Origin: an uncultured Roseburia sp.
Lineage (GTDB): Bacteria; Bacillota; Clostridia; Lachnospirales; Lachnospiraceae
Direction: 5' to 3'
Length of the DNA: 32,943 bases
Assembly (NCBI GenBank): GCA_945787015.1
Contig: CALZGM010000034.1
Location: 1 to 32,943, forward strand
How positions within the stretch are numbered: the first letter of the stretch is position 1; each line of letters opens with the position of its first letter. The translations under genes were made by a program, and so were the position numbers. Below the pieces are notes generated by a model. That model made no database searches. It worked only from the letters and a program-made list of their open reading frames with translations, and had not been told where the DNA came from. Shown in pieces: positions 26,100 to 31,691 of this stretch.

Positions 26100-26131
26100 G
26101 ATTAAGTTGTACGTTGAAAGGAGGATGTGAA

Positions 26132-27010
26132 ATGCATAAGTTTTTGCGGGCAGTAGGATTTTCCAAGATTACAAAAGAAGAATTGGAAACACTGTTTCAA
26201 AAAATCATCGATCATCCGACTGTTCAGAAGGCTGCAGAAGATTCGGAAGGAAATGAGTTTGCAGAGCTTAGTAAAGAATATGGAGATTTTTTTGGTATTT
26301 CTTTACGGGGAACTTTTGATGAAGACGATACCTTTCATTTGGATTATTATTATCCGTATTTTTGTGGGAATACACTTTCCACACAGGAAAAGCCGGATAT
26401 TGAAAAGCATGCAGAAAAAGAATCCTATGCAGGAATCTGTGATGAGGTACGTGTGGGTGTAACACTTATTTTTTATCTACAGAATGTGGTTGATTATCTG
26501 GCAGAAAAGAACAATCCGATGTTTCGGCTCCAAAAGAAGGGAGTCGTTTTGAGTGGTCTTTCTACAGATGGTAAGATATTACTTCCAATTAATAAGGATG
26601 AAAAAAAGCATAAACAGCTTGAACAACAAAAGATAGAGCGTAACAATATGATTGCTGCCGCGAGAAACGGTGATGAGAATGCAATTGAAAATCTTACATT
26701 GGAAGATATTGATACATACTCACTTCTTTCAAGACGAATTATGCGGGAAGATATTTTGAGTATTGTAGAAAATTATTTTATGCCTTATGGAATTGAAAGC
26801 GATCAGTATGCAATTCTTGGAGATATTATGGATTGCAGATTTTTACAAAATGAATATACCGGTGAAAACGTATATGTAATGGATTTAGTTTGCAATGATA
26901 TTCCGTTTAGTATCTGTATTAATCAAAAGGATTTATTAGGTGAACCTGCGGTTGGAAGACGGTTTAAGGGAACCATCTGGCTTCAGGGAAGTATCTGTTA
27001 TCAAAATTAG
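26132..27010 (+). CDS. DUF3881 family protein
   Basis: This 292-residue soluble protein is recognisable from MHKFLRAVGFS, the family's usual opening, and from its layout. An acidic N-terminal region has FGISLRGTF..DDTFHLDYYYPYF, a middle part has RNNMIAAARNGDENAIENLTLEDIDTY, and the C-terminus has VYVMDLVCNDIPFSICIN. DUF3881 is largely confined to Lachnospiraceae and its function is unknown. I chose the ATG with AAAGGAGG 8 nt upstream. A TTG 18 bp earlier would place that ribosome binding site inside the gene. It is the last core-genome gene before the tRNA array. Confidence 0.85.
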   Translation: MHKFLRAVGFSKITKEELETLFQKIIDHPTVQKAAEDSEGNEFAELSKEYGDFFGISLRGTFDEDDTFHLDYYYPYFCGNTLSTQEKPDIEKHAEKESYAGICDEVRVGVTLIFYLQNVVDYLAEKNNPMFRLQKKGVVLSGLSTDGKILLPINKDEKKHKQLEQQKIERNNMIAAARNGDENAIENLTLEDIDTYSLLSRRIMREDILSIVENYFMPYGIESDQYAILGDIMDCRFLQNEYTGENVYVMDLVCNDIPFSICINQKDLLGEPAVGRRFKGTIWLQGSICYQN

Positions 27011-27059
27011 ATATGGCAGCCGTTGCCAAAGAGGCTTAAAACCTGAAAATACGGCATTC

Positions 27060-27098
27060 GTTCTCATAGTTAAATGGATATAACAAGCGCCTCCTAAG
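27060..27098 (+). pseudogene. tRNA-Arg(CCT) 5' half, array copy 1
   Basis: These 39 nt are identical to the 5' half of the intact tRNA at 27708: acceptor strand GTTCTCA, D arm GTTA/TAAC, 5' anticodon stem and loop with CCT. After CCTAAG the sequence leaves the tRNA. GGTTC cannot pair with AGCGC, so no functional tRNA is possible. Confidence 0.9.
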
Positions 27099-27275
27099 GT
27101 TCAACCATGGTTAGACCCGTGAGAAATAGAAAGGGTATAACTTGGAGTTCGATTCAAGGAATGTCGCTTGAGATGTCGGAATAAGAAATAGAGGTAATTC
27201 ATCACGAAAGTGATTGGATTCATAAATATGGTTGCCGGTTCCAAAGTGGCTGAAAAGCCCGAAAATACGGCATTC

Positions 27276-27314
27276 GTTCTCATAGTTAAATGGATATAAC
27301 AAGCGCCTCCTAAG
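27276..27314 (+). pseudogene. tRNA-Arg(CCT) 5' half, array copy 2
   Basis: This copy is identical over 39 nt to the intact gene and to copy 1. The tail that follows (27315-27442) is the most diverged of the three yet keeps AACCATGG and GTTCGATTC at the same offsets. Confidence 0.9.
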
Positions 27315-27491
27315 GTTTAACCATGGTTAATCCCGAGGCAAGGGAAATGGGAATAAGTCAGAGTTCGATTCTAACCGGAATTGATTGAGATGTTGATTTA
27401 AGATACAATAGAAATTCATCACTTAGTGATTGGATTCATAGATATGGCTGCCGATGCCAAAGTGGCTGAAAAGCCCGAAAATACGGCATTT

Positions 27492-27530
27492 GTCCCCTTA
27501 GTTAAATGGATATAACGGGGCCCTCCTAAG
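27492..27530 (+). pseudogene. tRNA-Arg(CCT) 5' half, array copy 3, of a different tRNA allele
   Basis: Seven of 39 bases differ from the other copies, three in the acceptor strand (GTCCCCT) and four at the start of the anticodon arm (GGGGCC for AAGCGC). D arm and anticodon loop are unchanged. The pattern is that of another tRNA-Arg(CCT) gene rather than random decay. Here the following GGTTC could pair with GGGCC using two G-U pairs. Confidence 0.85.
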
Positions 27531-27707
27531 GTTCAACCATGGTTGGACCCGTTGGAAAGAAAAAGGGATAAACTTGGAGTTCGATTCCAGCAATGGCGCC
27601 TGTGATGTCAGAATAAGAAATAGAGGTAATTCATCACGAGAGTGATTGGATTCATAAATATGGTTGCCGATACCAAAGAGGCTGAAAAGCCCGAAAATAC
27701 GGCATTC

Positions 27708-27779
27708 GTTCTCATAGTTAAATGGATATAACAAGCGCCTCCTAAGCGCTAGTTGTGGGTTCGATTCCCGCTGGGAACA
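27708..27779 (+). tRNA. tRNA-Arg (anticodon CCT)
   Basis: This intact 72-nt tRNA has acceptor GTTCTCA/TGGGAAC (one G-U), D arm GTTA/TAAC, anticodon stem AGCGC/GCGCT with loop CTCCTAA, 4-nt variable loop, T arm GTGGG/CCCGC with loop TTCGATT, and discriminator A. It reads AGG codons. CCA is not encoded at the correct place. It is the fourth unit of the array and is followed by a strong terminator. Its position at the border to foreign-looking DNA makes it the likely integration target. Confidence 0.95.
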
Positions 27780-27786
27780 GCCATTT

Positions 27787-27825
27787 TTGCAGTAATAGTT
27801 GACCACAATTATTACTGCAATTTTT
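27787..27825 (+). terminator. Terminator after tRNA-Arg
   Basis: TTGCAGTAATA (27787-27797) pairs perfectly with TATTACTGCAA (27810-27820) around 12 nt, followed by TTTTTG and more T residues. Confidence 0.88.
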
Positions 27826-27843
27826 GTTTTTGGAGCGATTTTG

Positions 27844-27937
27844 GGTGGCAACTTGCCACCGAAGATTACCGCTAGATACAAAATCTGCCACCGAAAATGA
27901 AAAACTGCCACCCATTATGATTTTTTGGATTGCCACC
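27844..27937. repeat. Cluster of TGCCACC repeats, possible IS end or binding-site array
   Basis: GGTGGCAA-C-TTGCCACC forms a near-perfect palindrome (27844-27860). Direct copies of TGCCACC follow at 27886, 27906 and 27931, two of them in the context CTGCCACC. Such short repeats in both orientations resemble the multiple terminal repeats of IS21-family elements, but no transposase gene is present. A protein-binding array of the adjacent element is an equal alternative. The rest of the 27826-28020 gap holds no gene I can support. Confidence 0.55.
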
Positions 27938-27973
27938 CGGAGAGTTCAACTACAGTGTAGGATGAGGTTTGGG

Positions 27974-28001
27974 TTGTAAATCAGTGATAACATTATATTC
28001 T
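27974..28001 (+). promoter_or_regulatory. Possible promoter of the parB-parA-parB operon
   Basis: TTGTAA (27974-27979) and TATTCT (27996-28001) at 16 bp, or TTGGGT with TATATT at 19 bp, are the only candidates before the attenuator-like leader. Both are mediocre. Confidence 0.3.
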
Positions 28002-28020
28002 TGCTTGGAAGTATTCGAGC

Positions 28021-28081
28021 CTGACGGTTAGGTCCGTTCAGATTAGATGAAAAACAATTCTAATCTGGGCGGGCTTTTTTA
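28021..28081 (+). promoter_or_regulatory. Terminator with competing upstream hairpin (probable attenuator) before the partition operon
   Basis: Bases 28032-28046 (starting GTCCG) pair with 28060-28074 (ending GGGC) over 15 consecutive base pairs, three of them G-U, around a 13-nt loop. Six T residues follow (28075-28080). This is a strong intrinsic terminator placed only 23 bp before the first gene. A competing hairpin CTGACGG/CCGTTCAG (28021-28041) uses part of the same 5' arm and would prevent the terminator. The ligand or protein deciding between them is not known. Confidence 0.7.
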
Positions 28082-28103
28082 CGTTCAGGGAAAAGGAGGA
28101 AGA

Positions 28104-28976
28104 ATGCCAATAGAAGAAAAAACAGAGCAACGGGAAGCAGATGAAAAAGTTGTAGAGATCGAGCTGGAACGACTGAGATCCTTTGCCAATCATCCGTTCA
28201 AAGTTCAGGCAGACAGTCAGATGATTGAACTCCAGGACAGCATCAGGAAATATGGAATACTGAATCCATTGATTGTCCGGCCAAGACCGGAAGGGGTATA
28301 TGAGATCATATCCGGGCACCGAAGAAAATTCGCAGCAGAAAAGCTGGGGTATCGGAAGGTCCCTGTAATCATTCGGGCGATGAAGGATGATGAAGCAGTG
28401 GTTTCAATGGTAGATTCCAATCTTCAAAGGGAGAGAATCAGTCCAAGCGAAAAAGCATTTGCTTACAAGATGAAGTACGATGCAATCAAAAGAAGAACCG
28501 GCAGAAGAAAATGTGGTCAAGTTGACCATCATTCCGGGAAAAAGACCCTTGAAGTAATTGGAGAAGAAGGCGGAGACAGTCCGAAGCAGGTCCAGAGGTA
28601 TATCAAGATAACAGAACTGATACCGGAGCTTCTGGAAAAAGTGGATGATGGCAGCATGGGTTTCACGCCGGCGGTCCAGATTTCCTACCTGAAAAAGAAG
28701 GAACAGGAAGAAATGCTGGAAGCTATGGATTTTGCCCAGTGTACACCATCTTTATCACAGGCAATCAGAATAAAAAAACTGAGCTCAGAAGGAAAGCTTA
28801 CGGTAGAAACAATGGAAGATATTTTAAGTGAAATTAAGCAGAAAGATATTGACCGAGTAGTTTTTAAGAATGAGCAACTTCACAGGTTTTTTCCAGCCAG
28901 CTATACATCGGAACAGATGCGGCGTGAGATATTGGAAATATTGAAGTTATGGATGAAAAATAATTGGGATAAATAG
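28104..28976 (+). CDS. ParB-family partition protein 1 of the accessory element
   Basis: This 290-residue ParB has IELERLRSFANHPFKVQ (N-terminal start of the ParB domain), GILNPLIVRP, ISGHRRKFAAEKLG (CTP motif with GHRR in place of GERR) and DSNLQRERISPSEKAFAYKMKYDA. A helix-turn-helix region near KQVQRYIKITELIPELLEKVDDG follows, and the C-terminal tail ends in FFPASYTSEQMRREILEIL. AAGGAGG lies before the chosen ATG. An in-frame ATG 57 bp upstream sits in the terminator loop without a ribosome binding site. It is clearly paralogous to the ParB at 29774 and distant from the chromosomal ParB. Confidence 0.93.
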   Translation: MPIEEKTEQREADEKVVEIELERLRSFANHPFKVQADSQMIELQDSIRKYGILNPLIVRPRPEGVYEIISGHRRKFAAEKLGYRKVPVIIRAMKDDEAVVSMVDSNLQRERISPSEKAFAYKMKYDAIKRRTGRRKCGQVDHHSGKKTLEVIGEEGGDSPKQVQRYIKITELIPELLEKVDDGSMGFTPAVQISYLKKKEQEEMLEAMDFAQCTPSLSQAIRIKKLSSEGKLTVETMEDILSEIKQKDIDRVVFKNEQLHRFFPASYTSEQMRREILEILKLWMKNNWDK

Positions 28977-28987
28977 GAGGACAGATT

Positions 28988-29770
28988 ATGTGTAGAGTAA
29001 TTGCAGTATCAAACCAAAAAGGTGGAGTAGGTAAGACGGTATCATGTGTGAATCTTGGTATCGGCCTGGCGCAGTCAGGAAAGAAGGTTCTGTTGATTGA
29101 TGCGGATCCGCAGGGAAGCATGACAATCAGCCTTGGATATCCGGAGCCGGATGATATGGAGTATTCTCTGGCAAGCATGATGATGAATATTGTAAATGAT
29201 GAACCGCTTAACATGGATAAAACGATTCTTCATCATAAGGAAGGTGTGGATCTTATTCCGGCAAATATTGAATTATCAGCAATAGAAGTTTCTCTGGTAA
29301 ATGTAATGAGCAGGGAACTGATTCTTAGAACAATGGTAGACCAGCTGAGACAGTTCTATGATTTCATCATTATAGACTGCATGCCATCTCTGGGAATGAT
29401 GACAATAAATGCGCTGGCATGTGCAGACTCTGTTTTGATTCCGGTACAGGCTGCATATCTTCCGGTCAAGGGTTTACAACAGCTGATCAAAACAATCAGC
29501 AGGGTAAAGAAGCAGCTGAATCCGAAGCTTAAGATAGAAGGAATTCTTCTGACTATGGTTGATAACCGTACCAATTATGCCAGAGACATTTCATTGATGG
29601 TTTATGATACCTATTCTGCAAATATAAAAGTATTTGCAACAGAGATACCAATGTCAGTCAGGGCATCAGAGGTAAGTGTGGAAGGAAGCAGTATTTATTC
29701 CTATGATCCGAAAGGAAAAGCGGCATTTGCATATATGGCATTAACAAAGGAAGTGTTGAAGGAGGCATAA
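28988..29770 (+). CDS. ParA-family ATPase of the accessory element
   Basis: This 260-residue ATPase has the Walker A KGGVGKTV (11-18), LLIDADPQGSMT, and FIIIDCMPSLGMMTINAL (Walker B region). The C-terminus has PMSVRASEVSVEGSSIYSYDPKGKAA, as in ParA proteins of Firmicute plasmids and integrative elements. It lacks an N-terminal helix-turn-helix, so it is the short ParA type. GGAGG is 8 nt from the ATG. It lies between two parB genes (11 and 3 bp gaps), forming one operon. It should partition the element rather than the chromosome. Confidence 0.95.
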   Translation: MCRVIAVSNQKGGVGKTVSCVNLGIGLAQSGKKVLLIDADPQGSMTISLGYPEPDDMEYSLASMMMNIVNDEPLNMDKTILHHKEGVDLIPANIELSAIEVSLVNVMSRELILRTMVDQLRQFYDFIIIDCMPSLGMMTINALACADSVLIPVQAAYLPVKGLQQLIKTISRVKKQLNPKLKIEGILLTMVDNRTNYARDISLMVYDTYSANIKVFATEIPMSVRASEVSVEGSSIYSYDPKGKAAFAYMALTKEVLKEA

Positions 29771-29773
29771 GAC

Positions 29774-30673
29774 ATGGCAGGAAGAGTAGCAGGTAAAATC
29801 AAATTGCAGTCAGTGGATGAATTATTGGGGGTACCGGAGATTGCCGGGACACAGGAAATAGAACTTGGAAGGATTCATGCTTTTCCGAACCATCCGTTCA
29901 AGGTATTGGATGATGATAAGATGGAAACGCTGGTAGATAGCATCAGGGAAAACGGTATATTGAATCCGGTAATTGTCAGACCTGACCAGACCGGAAATTA
30001 TGAAATGATATCCGGCCACAGAAGATTACATGCGGCAGGCATTGTGGGATTAAAGAAGATACCGGCGATTGTAAAAGAAATGTCGGATGATGAAGCCATT
30101 ATAAAAATGTTGGATGCGAACATTCAGCGAGAAGAGATACTTCCAAGTGAAAGAGCATGGTCTTTGAAGATGAAAATGGATGCGATGAGAAGACAAGGAA
30201 GCAGAACTGATTTAACTTGTGGCACTGAGTGCCAGAAGTTGTCATCCGATGAAGTTGGAGAAGCATTTGGATTAAAAGGTAGACAGGTAAGGAAATATGT
30301 ACGATTAACAGAACTGATATCTGAATTGATGGATTATGTTGATATGAAGAAAATACCGATTTCTATGGCAGTCGATATCTCATATTTTGATGAACAGGTT
30401 CAAAAGTGGGTTTATGAATATATAAAAGACAATGGGTTCCTGAAGCCGGTGCAGATAGCAGCTTTGAAGGAGCAACCGAACCTGTCAAATGCGTCTCAGT
30501 ATAATGTTATCTCTATATTAAATGGAGCACTGCCACAGAAATCATCATCAGCAAAGGTATCATTGTCAGAGAAGAAACTGGATAGGTATTTTCCACCACA
30601 CTATTCCGCAAAACAGAGGGAAGAGGTTATCATTCAGCTTCTGGAACAGTGGAGTAAGGAGCAGGCAGAATAA
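29774..30673 (+). CDS. ParB-family partition protein 2 of the accessory element
   Basis: A 299-residue ParB. After a basic N-terminus (MAGRVAGKIKLQSVDELLG, a possible ParA-contact peptide) come IELGRIHAFPNHPFKV, GILNPVIVRP, ISGHRRLHAAGIVG and DANIQREEILPSERAW. A helix-turn-helix (SDEVGEAFGLKGRQVRKYVRLTEL) follows. The end RYFPPHYSAKQREEVIIQLLEQW parallels the end of ParB 1. It starts 3 bp after parA. Only this copy has the N-terminal extension typical of ParA stimulation. ParB 1 starts directly with the ParB domain, which may mean a division of labour. Confidence 0.94.
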   Translation: MAGRVAGKIKLQSVDELLGVPEIAGTQEIELGRIHAFPNHPFKVLDDDKMETLVDSIRENGILNPVIVRPDQTGNYEMISGHRRLHAAGIVGLKKIPAIVKEMSDDEAIIKMLDANIQREEILPSERAWSLKMKMDAMRRQGSRTDLTCGTECQKLSSDEVGEAFGLKGRQVRKYVRLTELISELMDYVDMKKIPISMAVDISYFDEQVQKWVYEYIKDNGFLKPVQIAALKEQPNLSNASQYNVISILNGALPQKSSSAKVSLSEKKLDRYFPPHYSAKQREEVIIQLLEQWSKEQAE

Positions 30674-30684
30674 ATAGGAAAGGG

Positions 30685-30719
30685 TAATCCAGAAGTGTGA
30701 AAAGTGCACTTCTGGATTA
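30685..30719. promoter_or_regulatory. Perfect 13-bp inverted repeat before repA (candidate operator)
   Basis: TAATCCAGAAGTG (30685-30697) and CACTTCTGGATTA (30707-30719) surround a 9-nt centre, 15 bp before the repA start. It contains the AGAAGTG core found as iterons inside repA. No T tract follows, so a terminator is unlikely. RepA autoregulation at this site is a reasonable inference. Confidence 0.7.
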
Positions 30720-30734
30720 AGGAAGGAGTATCGA

Positions 30735-31691
30735 ATGGAAGACAGACTTACGTTTTCCTATTTCTATGGAAAGGAAGCGGACCAGTATTCATTTTATAAA
30801 ATACCAAAGCTGCTATTCACGGATGAACATTTCAAGAATGTATCTGTAGAGGCAAAGGTTCTGTATGGGCTGATGTTGGATAGGATGTCGTTATCGGTAA
30901 AAAATCAGTGGCTTGATACGGAAGGCCGGGCATATATCTATTATTCATTAGAAGATATCATGGATGCTCTGGGTTGTAGTAACAAGAAAGCAATTACCAT
31001 AATGAAGGAACTGGATACAGAAGCCGGGATTGGATTGATTGAAAAGAGGCGGCAGGGACAGGGAAAGCCAACCATGATTTATGTGAAGCAGTTCGTGGTT
31101 CAGGATGTTCAGAAATGTAAAAATTACACTTCTGAGGAAAATATGGCAGTTCCAGAAGTGAAAAAATTACATGTCTTGAAGTGTAAAAAGGACACTTCTA
31201 GAAGTGAAGAAATTACATGTCTAGAAGTGAAAAAAATTCACACTAATAAGAATAATATAAATAATACTGATTTGAATAATACTGAATCTAATCTTATCTT
31301 ATCGGGAAATGATGGGATGGGATCCGATGTGGAAGCTTACACAGAGTTAATCAGGGACAATCTGGATTTAGATATTTTGAGAGAGCGTTATCCGTATGAT
31401 CAGGAGCTTCTTGATGGTATTTTTGATTTGATTCTTGAAACAGTACTCTGCAAAAGTGAAAGTATTATTATTGCATCAAACGAATACCCGGCGGCTATTG
31501 TAAGGAGTAAGTTTTTGAAGCTGAACAGCTCGCATATCGAATATGTGATTGACTGCTTTAAGACGAATACTACCAAGGTACATAATATCAAAAAGTATCT
31601 GCTTGCAGCATTATTCAATGCTCCGACTACAATAAGCGGATATTATCAGGCAGAGGTTAACCATGATATGCCGCAGTTTGCTGTGAAATAG
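30735..31691 (+). CDS. repA: RepA_N-type replication initiator with C-terminal DUF6017-like domain
   Basis: This 318-residue protein has an N-terminal domain, FYKIPKLLFTDEHFKNVSVEAKVLYGLMLDR, DTEGRAYIYYSLEDIMDALGCSNKKAITIMKEL and GLIEKRRQGQGKP, which is the RepA_N pattern of winged-helix initiators. Residues about 125-167 are a variable linker encoded by the iteron DNA. The C-terminal domain (about 205-315) has LRERYPYDQELLDGIFDLILETV and NIKKYLLAALFNAPTT, as in DUF6017. GGAAGGAG precedes the ATG. RepA_N initiators drive theta replication of Firmicute plasmids and are common in integrative conjugative elements. The adjoining partition operon fits this. Confidence 0.93.
   Translation: MEDRLTFSYFYGKEADQYSFYKIPKLLFTDEHFKNVSVEAKVLYGLMLDRMSLSVKNQWLDTEGRAYIYYSLEDIMDALGCSNKKAITIMKELDTEAGIGLIEKRRQGQGKPTMIYVKQFVVQDVQKCKNYTSEENMAVPEVKKLHVLKCKKDTSRSEEITCLEVKKIHTNKNNINNTDLNNTESNLILSGNDGMGSDVEAYTELIRDNLDLDILRERYPYDQELLDGIFDLILETVLCKSESIIIASNEYPAAIVRSKFLKLNSSHIEYVIDCFKTNTTKVHNIKKYLLAALFNAPTTISGYYQAEVNHDMPQFAVK
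31109..31235. repeat. Iterons inside repA (candidate replication origin of the element)
   Basis: The core AGAAGTG (TGAAGTG once) occurs at 31154, 31177, 31200 and 31223, an exact 23-bp period. A 30-bp segment at 31154-31183 recurs at 31200-31229 with two differences. An imperfect inverted repeat TCAGAAATGTAA/TTACACTTCTGA (31109-31135) and a perfect 14-bp palindrome CACTTCTAGAAGTG (31193-31206) add inverted copies. As 23 is not a multiple of three, the repeats are read in all frames and are selected as DNA, not as protein. RepA_N plasmids are known to have their origin inside repA. Confidence 0.82.

Follow-up and report, generated by a model that had tools for sequence, protein, structure and literature searches.

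The stretch analysed here, referred to as the window, comprises 32,943 nucleotides from a 59-contig draft genome of an uncultured Roseburia sp., and all features described lie on its forward strand. A DUF3881 gene (26114–27010; Pfam PF12997, E value 6.6e-123), a host gene that usually precedes the tRNA-Arg(CCT) site and has a homologue at 26 of 35 loci chosen for this test, is followed by a tandem array with a period of 216 and 3.4 copies (27011–27746; Tandem Repeats Finder, score 955). Four tRNA 5′ halves start at 27060, 27276, 27492 and 27708, and four copies of the anticodon loop sequence CTCCTAA start at 27091, 27307, 27523 and 27739. ARAGORN identified a single complete tRNA-Arg(CCT) in the window (27708–27779) and one tRNA-Ser elsewhere; Rfam concurred on both, with 64.5 bits for tRNA-Arg(CCT). 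The array matched its source genome once. The original prediction, that four 5′ halves lie 216 bp apart and that only the last is completed, was confirmed. Its common leader, its AACCATGG and GTTCGATTC boxes and its diverged second tail with small gaps were also found as claimed.

That prediction had divided the array from leader to leader. We retained the 216-bp period but not this cut, because the sequence of relatives switches at CTCCTAA, which favours a division from core to core. Cut in this way, the array consists of an outermost 5′ half, three 216-bp units (27091–27306, 27307–27522 and 27523–27738) and the 3′ half that completes tRNA-Arg(CCT). Each unit, as exemplified by unit 1, runs from the core CTCCTAA through a tail and a hairpin leader to a tRNA 5′ half; that of unit 2 reads GTCCCCT/GGGCC, and that of unit 3 belongs to the complete tRNA. 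A promoter-like TTGATT-17-TACAAT lies in unit 2 (27381–27409). It is not significant alone, since 26900–28100 contains three promoter-like sites versus 2.9 in shuffles.

A terminator-like hairpin (27787–27820) stands 3′ of the tRNA and is followed by two TGCCACCGAA repeats (27854–27863 and 27886–27895), which are candidate integrase arm sites. Downstream are genes with Pfam matches to ParB_N, ParA-type AAA_31, ParB_N and RepA_N plus DUF6017 (28047–31691). We read this region as part of an integrative element, of which the window covers about 5 kb; the genes in that portion are of the ParA, ParB and RepA_N types only, as judged by Pfam. Tandem Repeats Finder also reported 23/46-bp repeats within the RepA_N/DUF6017 gene (31110–31235), which may be the element's origin iterons.

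The DNA preceding the first core was compared with that of another genome of the genus (G048, locus L004). Over the kilobase before this core, 940 of 1032 columns were identical. In G048 the same leader and native 5′ half meet a 3′ half directly, without a unit; as the G048 contig stops 12 nucleotides past the core, only the start of this 3′ half is visible. The leader at 27012–27059 and the outermost 5′ half at 27060–27090 are therefore presumably those of the native tRNA-Arg(CCT).

Each unit has close relatives in other genomes. Exact 216-bp matches to unit 3 occur in four of them, Roseburia hominis (G183, loci L068/L097) and loci L106, L107 and L115, all with other flanking DNA. The 5′ half that precedes unit 3 has identical letters in G183 and L107 and different ones in L106, L115 and the window, and downstream there is a tRNA 3′ half in the window and G183 and three other tails in L106, L107 and L115. 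From the outer core at 27523, the window and G183 are 100% identical over 400 bp and 99% over the next 100, a match that spans unit 3, the tRNA, the terminator and the repeats; before the tRNA 5′ half, the G183 DNA is another leader. The same element start is also present in G147 (92–100% identity per 100-bp bin), where it is joined straight to the native 5′ half without a unit. Unit 3 is thus taken to be the left end of the element now in place. Unit 1, interpreted as the fossilised left end of an earlier element, is 91.7% identical to unit 3 over 216 bp; its matches to L109 (97.1% over 140 bp) and L070 (96.6% over 116 bp) are partial, both being clipped by contig ends. Unit 2 is read as a fossil left end from another lineage and is 95.9% identical to the unit at L100, which precedes ParB and ParA genes. 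As a separate observation, the first ParB gene (28023–29122) is 72–90% identical to that of G183 and its flanks, including most of ParA, are 95–100% identical; this segment appears to be replaced or fast-changing.

At the junctions read in relatives, the sequence switches at the short shared core CTCCTAA inside the tRNA gene, the position occupied in the window by the youngest site (27739–27745), and the distance between cores ranges from 2.6 kb to about 80 kb. The units sit within clearly different tRNA bodies in G246, Clostridium fessum (G283/L103) and Lacrimispora (L098). At four places non-tRNA DNA abuts a unit, as is expected of a circle or tandem of such elements: Catonella (G457:C4 310720), G005 (4474765), GAM79 (G458 3973117) and the faecal record L025. 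The native 5′ half of C. fessum was left out of this set, leaving four, after reclassification by eye from 'R?'. Two of the four are well supported. The Catonella junction DNA is a right end (type R1) with relatives that precede 3′ halves in G002, G005, G006, G008 and G034, and the right end at the G005 junction recurs in G003, where a 3′ half follows it. For GAM79 and L025, the DNA on the left side of the core matched no known right end.

The Catonella element encodes a tyrosine integrase (PF00589) 2.3 kb inside its right end, a 73% relative of which is present in G462. Some repeats are shared by both ends of an element, at about −140 relative to the right core and, on the other side, beginning at +114 to +147 relative to the inner core. 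The Catonella end repeats (TTTGTCAGCGAAA) share 13 and 15 bases, the longest in 200 shuffles being 12. G147, whose element start matches that of the window, has an R1-like right end; its right-end TGCCACCGAA repeat of 10 bases is not above chance (longest in shuffles, 14), and its two ends are on separate contigs. We infer that the recombinase is a tyrosine integrase, on the basis of where the crossover falls, of the Catonella element and of the R1-like right end of G147. The window genome yielded no R1-type right end, nothing close to the Catonella integrase (best match, 30%) and, by exact pattern, no second, displaced 3′ half, so the right boundary and recombinase of the present element are unseen; nor was any excision or circular form observed.

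The fate of the host tRNA is most clearly seen in G246, assembled as a single 2.24-Mb contig with a completeness rating of 100%. This genome has the native 5′ half first, then the unit and a complete foreign tRNA, about 2.6 kb of element DNA, a right end and a 3′ half, and the host tRNA halves are 2.8 kb apart. The displaced 3′ half pairs at 12 of 12 positions with the native 5′ half and at 5 of 12 with the 5′ half of the element, and the single complete CCT tRNA found by pattern search is that of the element. In the clearest relatives the host tRNA is split, with its 5′ half left in place, its 3′ half at the far end and a complete tRNA between them that belongs to the element.

We extended this comparison to 15 chains, in each of which the outermost 5′ half was paired with a second 3′ half of the same genome, counting G-U as a pair; the farther of two displaced halves was used for Catonella (the nearer gave 10/12) and the best of four for G199. 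The fit was 12/12 in ten chains (G246, G463, G457, G401, G462, G377, G096, G001, G199 and G460). Six of these have the displaced half on the same contig; the tie is less sure in G462, G377, G001 and G460 because it lies on another contig. Nine of the ten displaced halves fit the element's own 5′ half worse, and that of Catonella fits it equally well. The five imperfect chains were G066 (11/12), G003 (9/12), C. fessum (7/12), G466 (9/12) and G389 (8/12). In both C. fessum and G466 the displaced half scored 11/12 with an inner unit, and in G003 it scored 12/12 with the element's own 5′ half, fits that nesting would allow without demanding them. By pattern, a second 3′ half was absent from G183, G464, G465 and G467, as from the window's draft genome. 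In relatives, these comparisons show a displaced target fragment at the far end.

Junctions between a right end and a 3′ half occur in series in Catonella, G005 and G199, and tandem accretion at shared att cores is therefore found in this group. G199 also contains five CCT tRNA 3′ halves within 136 kb (G199:C1 1546656–1682615), one of the later ones being preceded by another 5′ half; this region is a deep element stack. In G003 (L062/L061), the 7.3 kb between two 3′ halves carries riboflavin-synthesis-like genes and a Fic-like gene, as identified by eye, and its listed ORFs include no integrase.

We also examined how the halves at the left end fit each other in 21 non-duplicate chains, which remained of 32 rows after dropping 10 duplicates and L060, part of the L002 locus; one of the 21, G005 (L002), has an outermost half that is not native. 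The element's own halves pair at 12/12 in 19 of the 21 chains. By comparison, full 12/12 pairing between the outermost 5′ half and the 3′ half of the element occurs in just four chains, the window included; the other 17 mispair. Some of these mispairs may reflect later decay of an orphaned half, but many of the differences were probably present at insertion, since the displaced halves fit perfectly in ten chains. The complete tRNA in the window uses the 5′ half of unit 3, and the host tRNA is not restored in the classical manner.

We consider it very probable that the array consists of the stacked left ends of integrative elements that target the anticodon loop of tRNA-Arg(CCT). Comparison among the relatives shows that the left end of such an element starts with the tail, leader and 5′ half (about 216 bp in the window), followed by another copy of CTCCTAA, the 3′ half, the terminator-like hairpin, the repeats and then the ParB-ParA-ParB-Rep genes. 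The element would recombine in the 7-bp CTCCTAA via a tyrosine integrase. The unit and the 3′ half that belongs to the element add up to an entire tRNA-Arg(CCT) carried by the element, so integration would both split the host gene and replace it; the unit would often supply a promoter as well. A later element would enter at the newest core, inside the tRNA of the previous element, and the earlier unit would stay behind as a 5′-half fossil. The window would have hosted three elements of this kind, all different, each of which entered the newest tRNA. Since these elements carry a whole tRNA and 17 of the 21 chains mispair, they would be freed from matching the host tRNA; that is, integration would not depend on the fit of the element's 3′ half to the host 5′ half. 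Insertions into the anticodon loop that restore the 5′ half had been proposed in the original prediction. The kind of event stands, but instead of a small element the insert is better interpreted as the left end of an entire integrative element, which brings the complete tRNA rather than the 5′ half alone.

Two other origins of the array were weighed against this one. Local duplication in tandem of the 5′ part of the tRNA gene, followed by decay, would account for the regular period, and in G401, where both units are identical, unequal exchange may therefore add copies. However, identical columns over the first 100 bases number only 70 of 101 for units 1 and 2, 86 of 100 for units 1 and 3 and 66 of 101 for units 2 and 3, whereas each unit is 96–100% identical to a relative elsewhere (for unit 1, to partial units), and in G377 three tails and tRNA bodies, all different, follow one another. 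As each unit in the window is closer to a unit in another genome than to its neighbours in the array, local duplication, including the plain decayed copies that the original prediction had allowed for, was rejected, and we give it next to no chance of being correct. Nor is selection on spacing needed to explain a period that is kept despite the diverged second tail, as had been suggested; another element lineage with a unit of nearly equal length explains it. The other origin is that the 216-bp unit itself is exchanged, as a self-contained tRNA-rescue cassette that elements swap and stack. Excision with the right end and the inner core would leave a unit behind and repeated cycles would add more, or the integrase would move units alone. 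Integron cassette arrays are likewise short units in a row between recombination cores; compared by description, the units here differ from integron cassettes in carrying tRNA halves. Exchange of the unit fits the presence of CTCCTAA at both ends of all 33 distinct units, which were defined in this way, and the position of the left-end repeats, which relative to the inner core begin at +114 to +147 and are thus farther from the outer core by about 216 bp. It also fits the occurrence of the same element start with a unit in G183 and without one in G147. In G183, however, identity to the window continues past the inner core through the tRNA and repeats, so the unit and element start moved together, and no unit was seen at an element-free locus among the loci examined. 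We regard such a cassette as unlikely. If it were real, the element-built tRNA would lift the need for a tRNA fragment to fit that of the host, and the array would be an ordered record of invaders.

The composition of the units bears on whether they also act as RNA. Seven of the 33 are 104–125 bp long, one is 161 bp, 22 are 206–219 bp and three are 259–272 bp. A consensus-like promoter (9 of 12 positions or better) was found in 14 units versus a shuffled mean of 1.15; it was absent from the other 19, units 1 and 3 of the window included, and we rejected a promoter in every unit. In 22 units a GTTCRA box, which is the T-loop consensus of tRNAs, lies 54–57 nucleotides after the core start (mononucleotide-shuffle mean of 0.27 for the range 45–62). 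Seventeen of these 22 have related tails, and the tails of five (units 4, 5, 6, 30 and 31 of the list) are mostly different. The box favours the view that the RNAs made of a 5′ half and tail are tRNA-like regulators co-made with the real tRNA, as had been proposed; were the cassette real, its constant distance would mean that the orphaned 5′ half and tail are still selected as a tRNA-like RNA. Pairing of tail hairpin 2 in 66% of cells, which none of 2000 shuffles reached (18 distinct rows), points the same way. Against this, the box is missing from that position in 11 of the 33 units; of 2000 shuffles, 857 reached the count of double changes in hairpin 2 and 966 that of pair types; and hairpin 1 was rejected as a conserved structure because it did no better than shuffles. 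The three window RNAs of 5′ half and tail fold no better than shuffles (z of −0.26 to −0.86; tail 3 alone, −1.23), the tRNA model gave those of units 3 and 2 scores of 19.9 and 15.4 bits, under its cut-off of 29, and at gathering score Rfam reported only the two tRNAs in the window and nothing in the units. We consider a regulatory RNA function highly improbable. A relaxed Rfam search of the leader for known RNAs found nothing convincing, for example RAGATH-21 at 19.7 bits versus a cut-off of 70.3.

Stacked left ends of integrative elements share several properties with known systems. Anticodon-loop targeting, displaced fragments and tandem accretion are all known (PMC4383910, PMC8371274, PMC5704250, PMC3146451), as are tRNA fragments (PMC9897764). 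Among the tRNA-targeting tyrosine-recombinase islands of Islander, 2083 of 3919 have an anticodon-centred site and 159 of 3919 leave a 5′ tDNA fragment (PMC4383910). The elements described here resemble tRNA-targeting ICE and IME islands in their target, the 7-bp core in the anticodon loop and the displaced fragment at the far end. In those islands a fragment restores the host gene, whereas the elements described here contain an entire tRNA gene, located past the tail, and neither half of the host gene is kept in use. As in the 5′-fragment islands, the working tRNA receives a new 5′ part, but here the 3′ half is also that of the element and the 5′ halves pile up in tandem. Several elements at one site are likewise described for the tandem accretion of ICEs, IMEs and CIMEs via shared att cores (PMC5704250) and for the ssrA islands of Dehalococcoides (PMC3146451). 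Such accretion leaves short gene ends spaced by islands, in contrast to the uninterrupted array of 216-bp left ends upstream of a complete gene seen here. The original prediction named no described element of this form, and we found no description of whole-tRNA-replacing elements or of 5′-half arrays in the literature searched, which had most subscription journals outside its coverage.

An element that gives back a whole gene and sits in clearly different tRNA bodies suggests a wider host range among Lachnospiraceae and their relatives. A host translation gene would become element-owned, and in G246 only this complete CCT tRNA was matched. The array would be a readable order of past integrations. 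It may also be a trap for annotation, since finders that rely on one fragment and one tRNA could misplace the left border.

A search of 84,980 species genomes with the leader pattern found 19 stretches, of which 14 have titles naming Roseburia, Catonella, Lacrimispora or Lachnospiraceae; the remaining five come from Clostridium fessum and from MAGs labelled Clostridia, Clostridiales, Thermoflexaceae and Bacteroides. The window genome and G183 fall in one family group, and NCBI assigns R. hominis to Lachnospiraceae and C. fessum to Clostridiaceae. The family search matched 113 of 397 genomes but does not serve as a count of units, as most matches were to the tRNA 5′ half alone; 30 loci were taken from it. 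The leader pattern had no match in viral contigs, and we rejected units in phages or plasmids, the named matches looking like tRNA genes (20 of 37 phage and 20 of 21 plasmid records listed). Of three unannotated faecal 'Bacteriophage sp.' records, only L025 contained a unit, beside bacterial or element genes. A two-unit array (L104) lies on a contig binned as uncultured Bacteroides, which is perhaps mis-binned. In G029, a partial leader copy (GCCCGAAAATATGGCATTTGTCC; L018, 1501–1532) with no tRNA at that place abuts a promoter-like TTGACA, and the ORF downstream of both resembles an HU protein.
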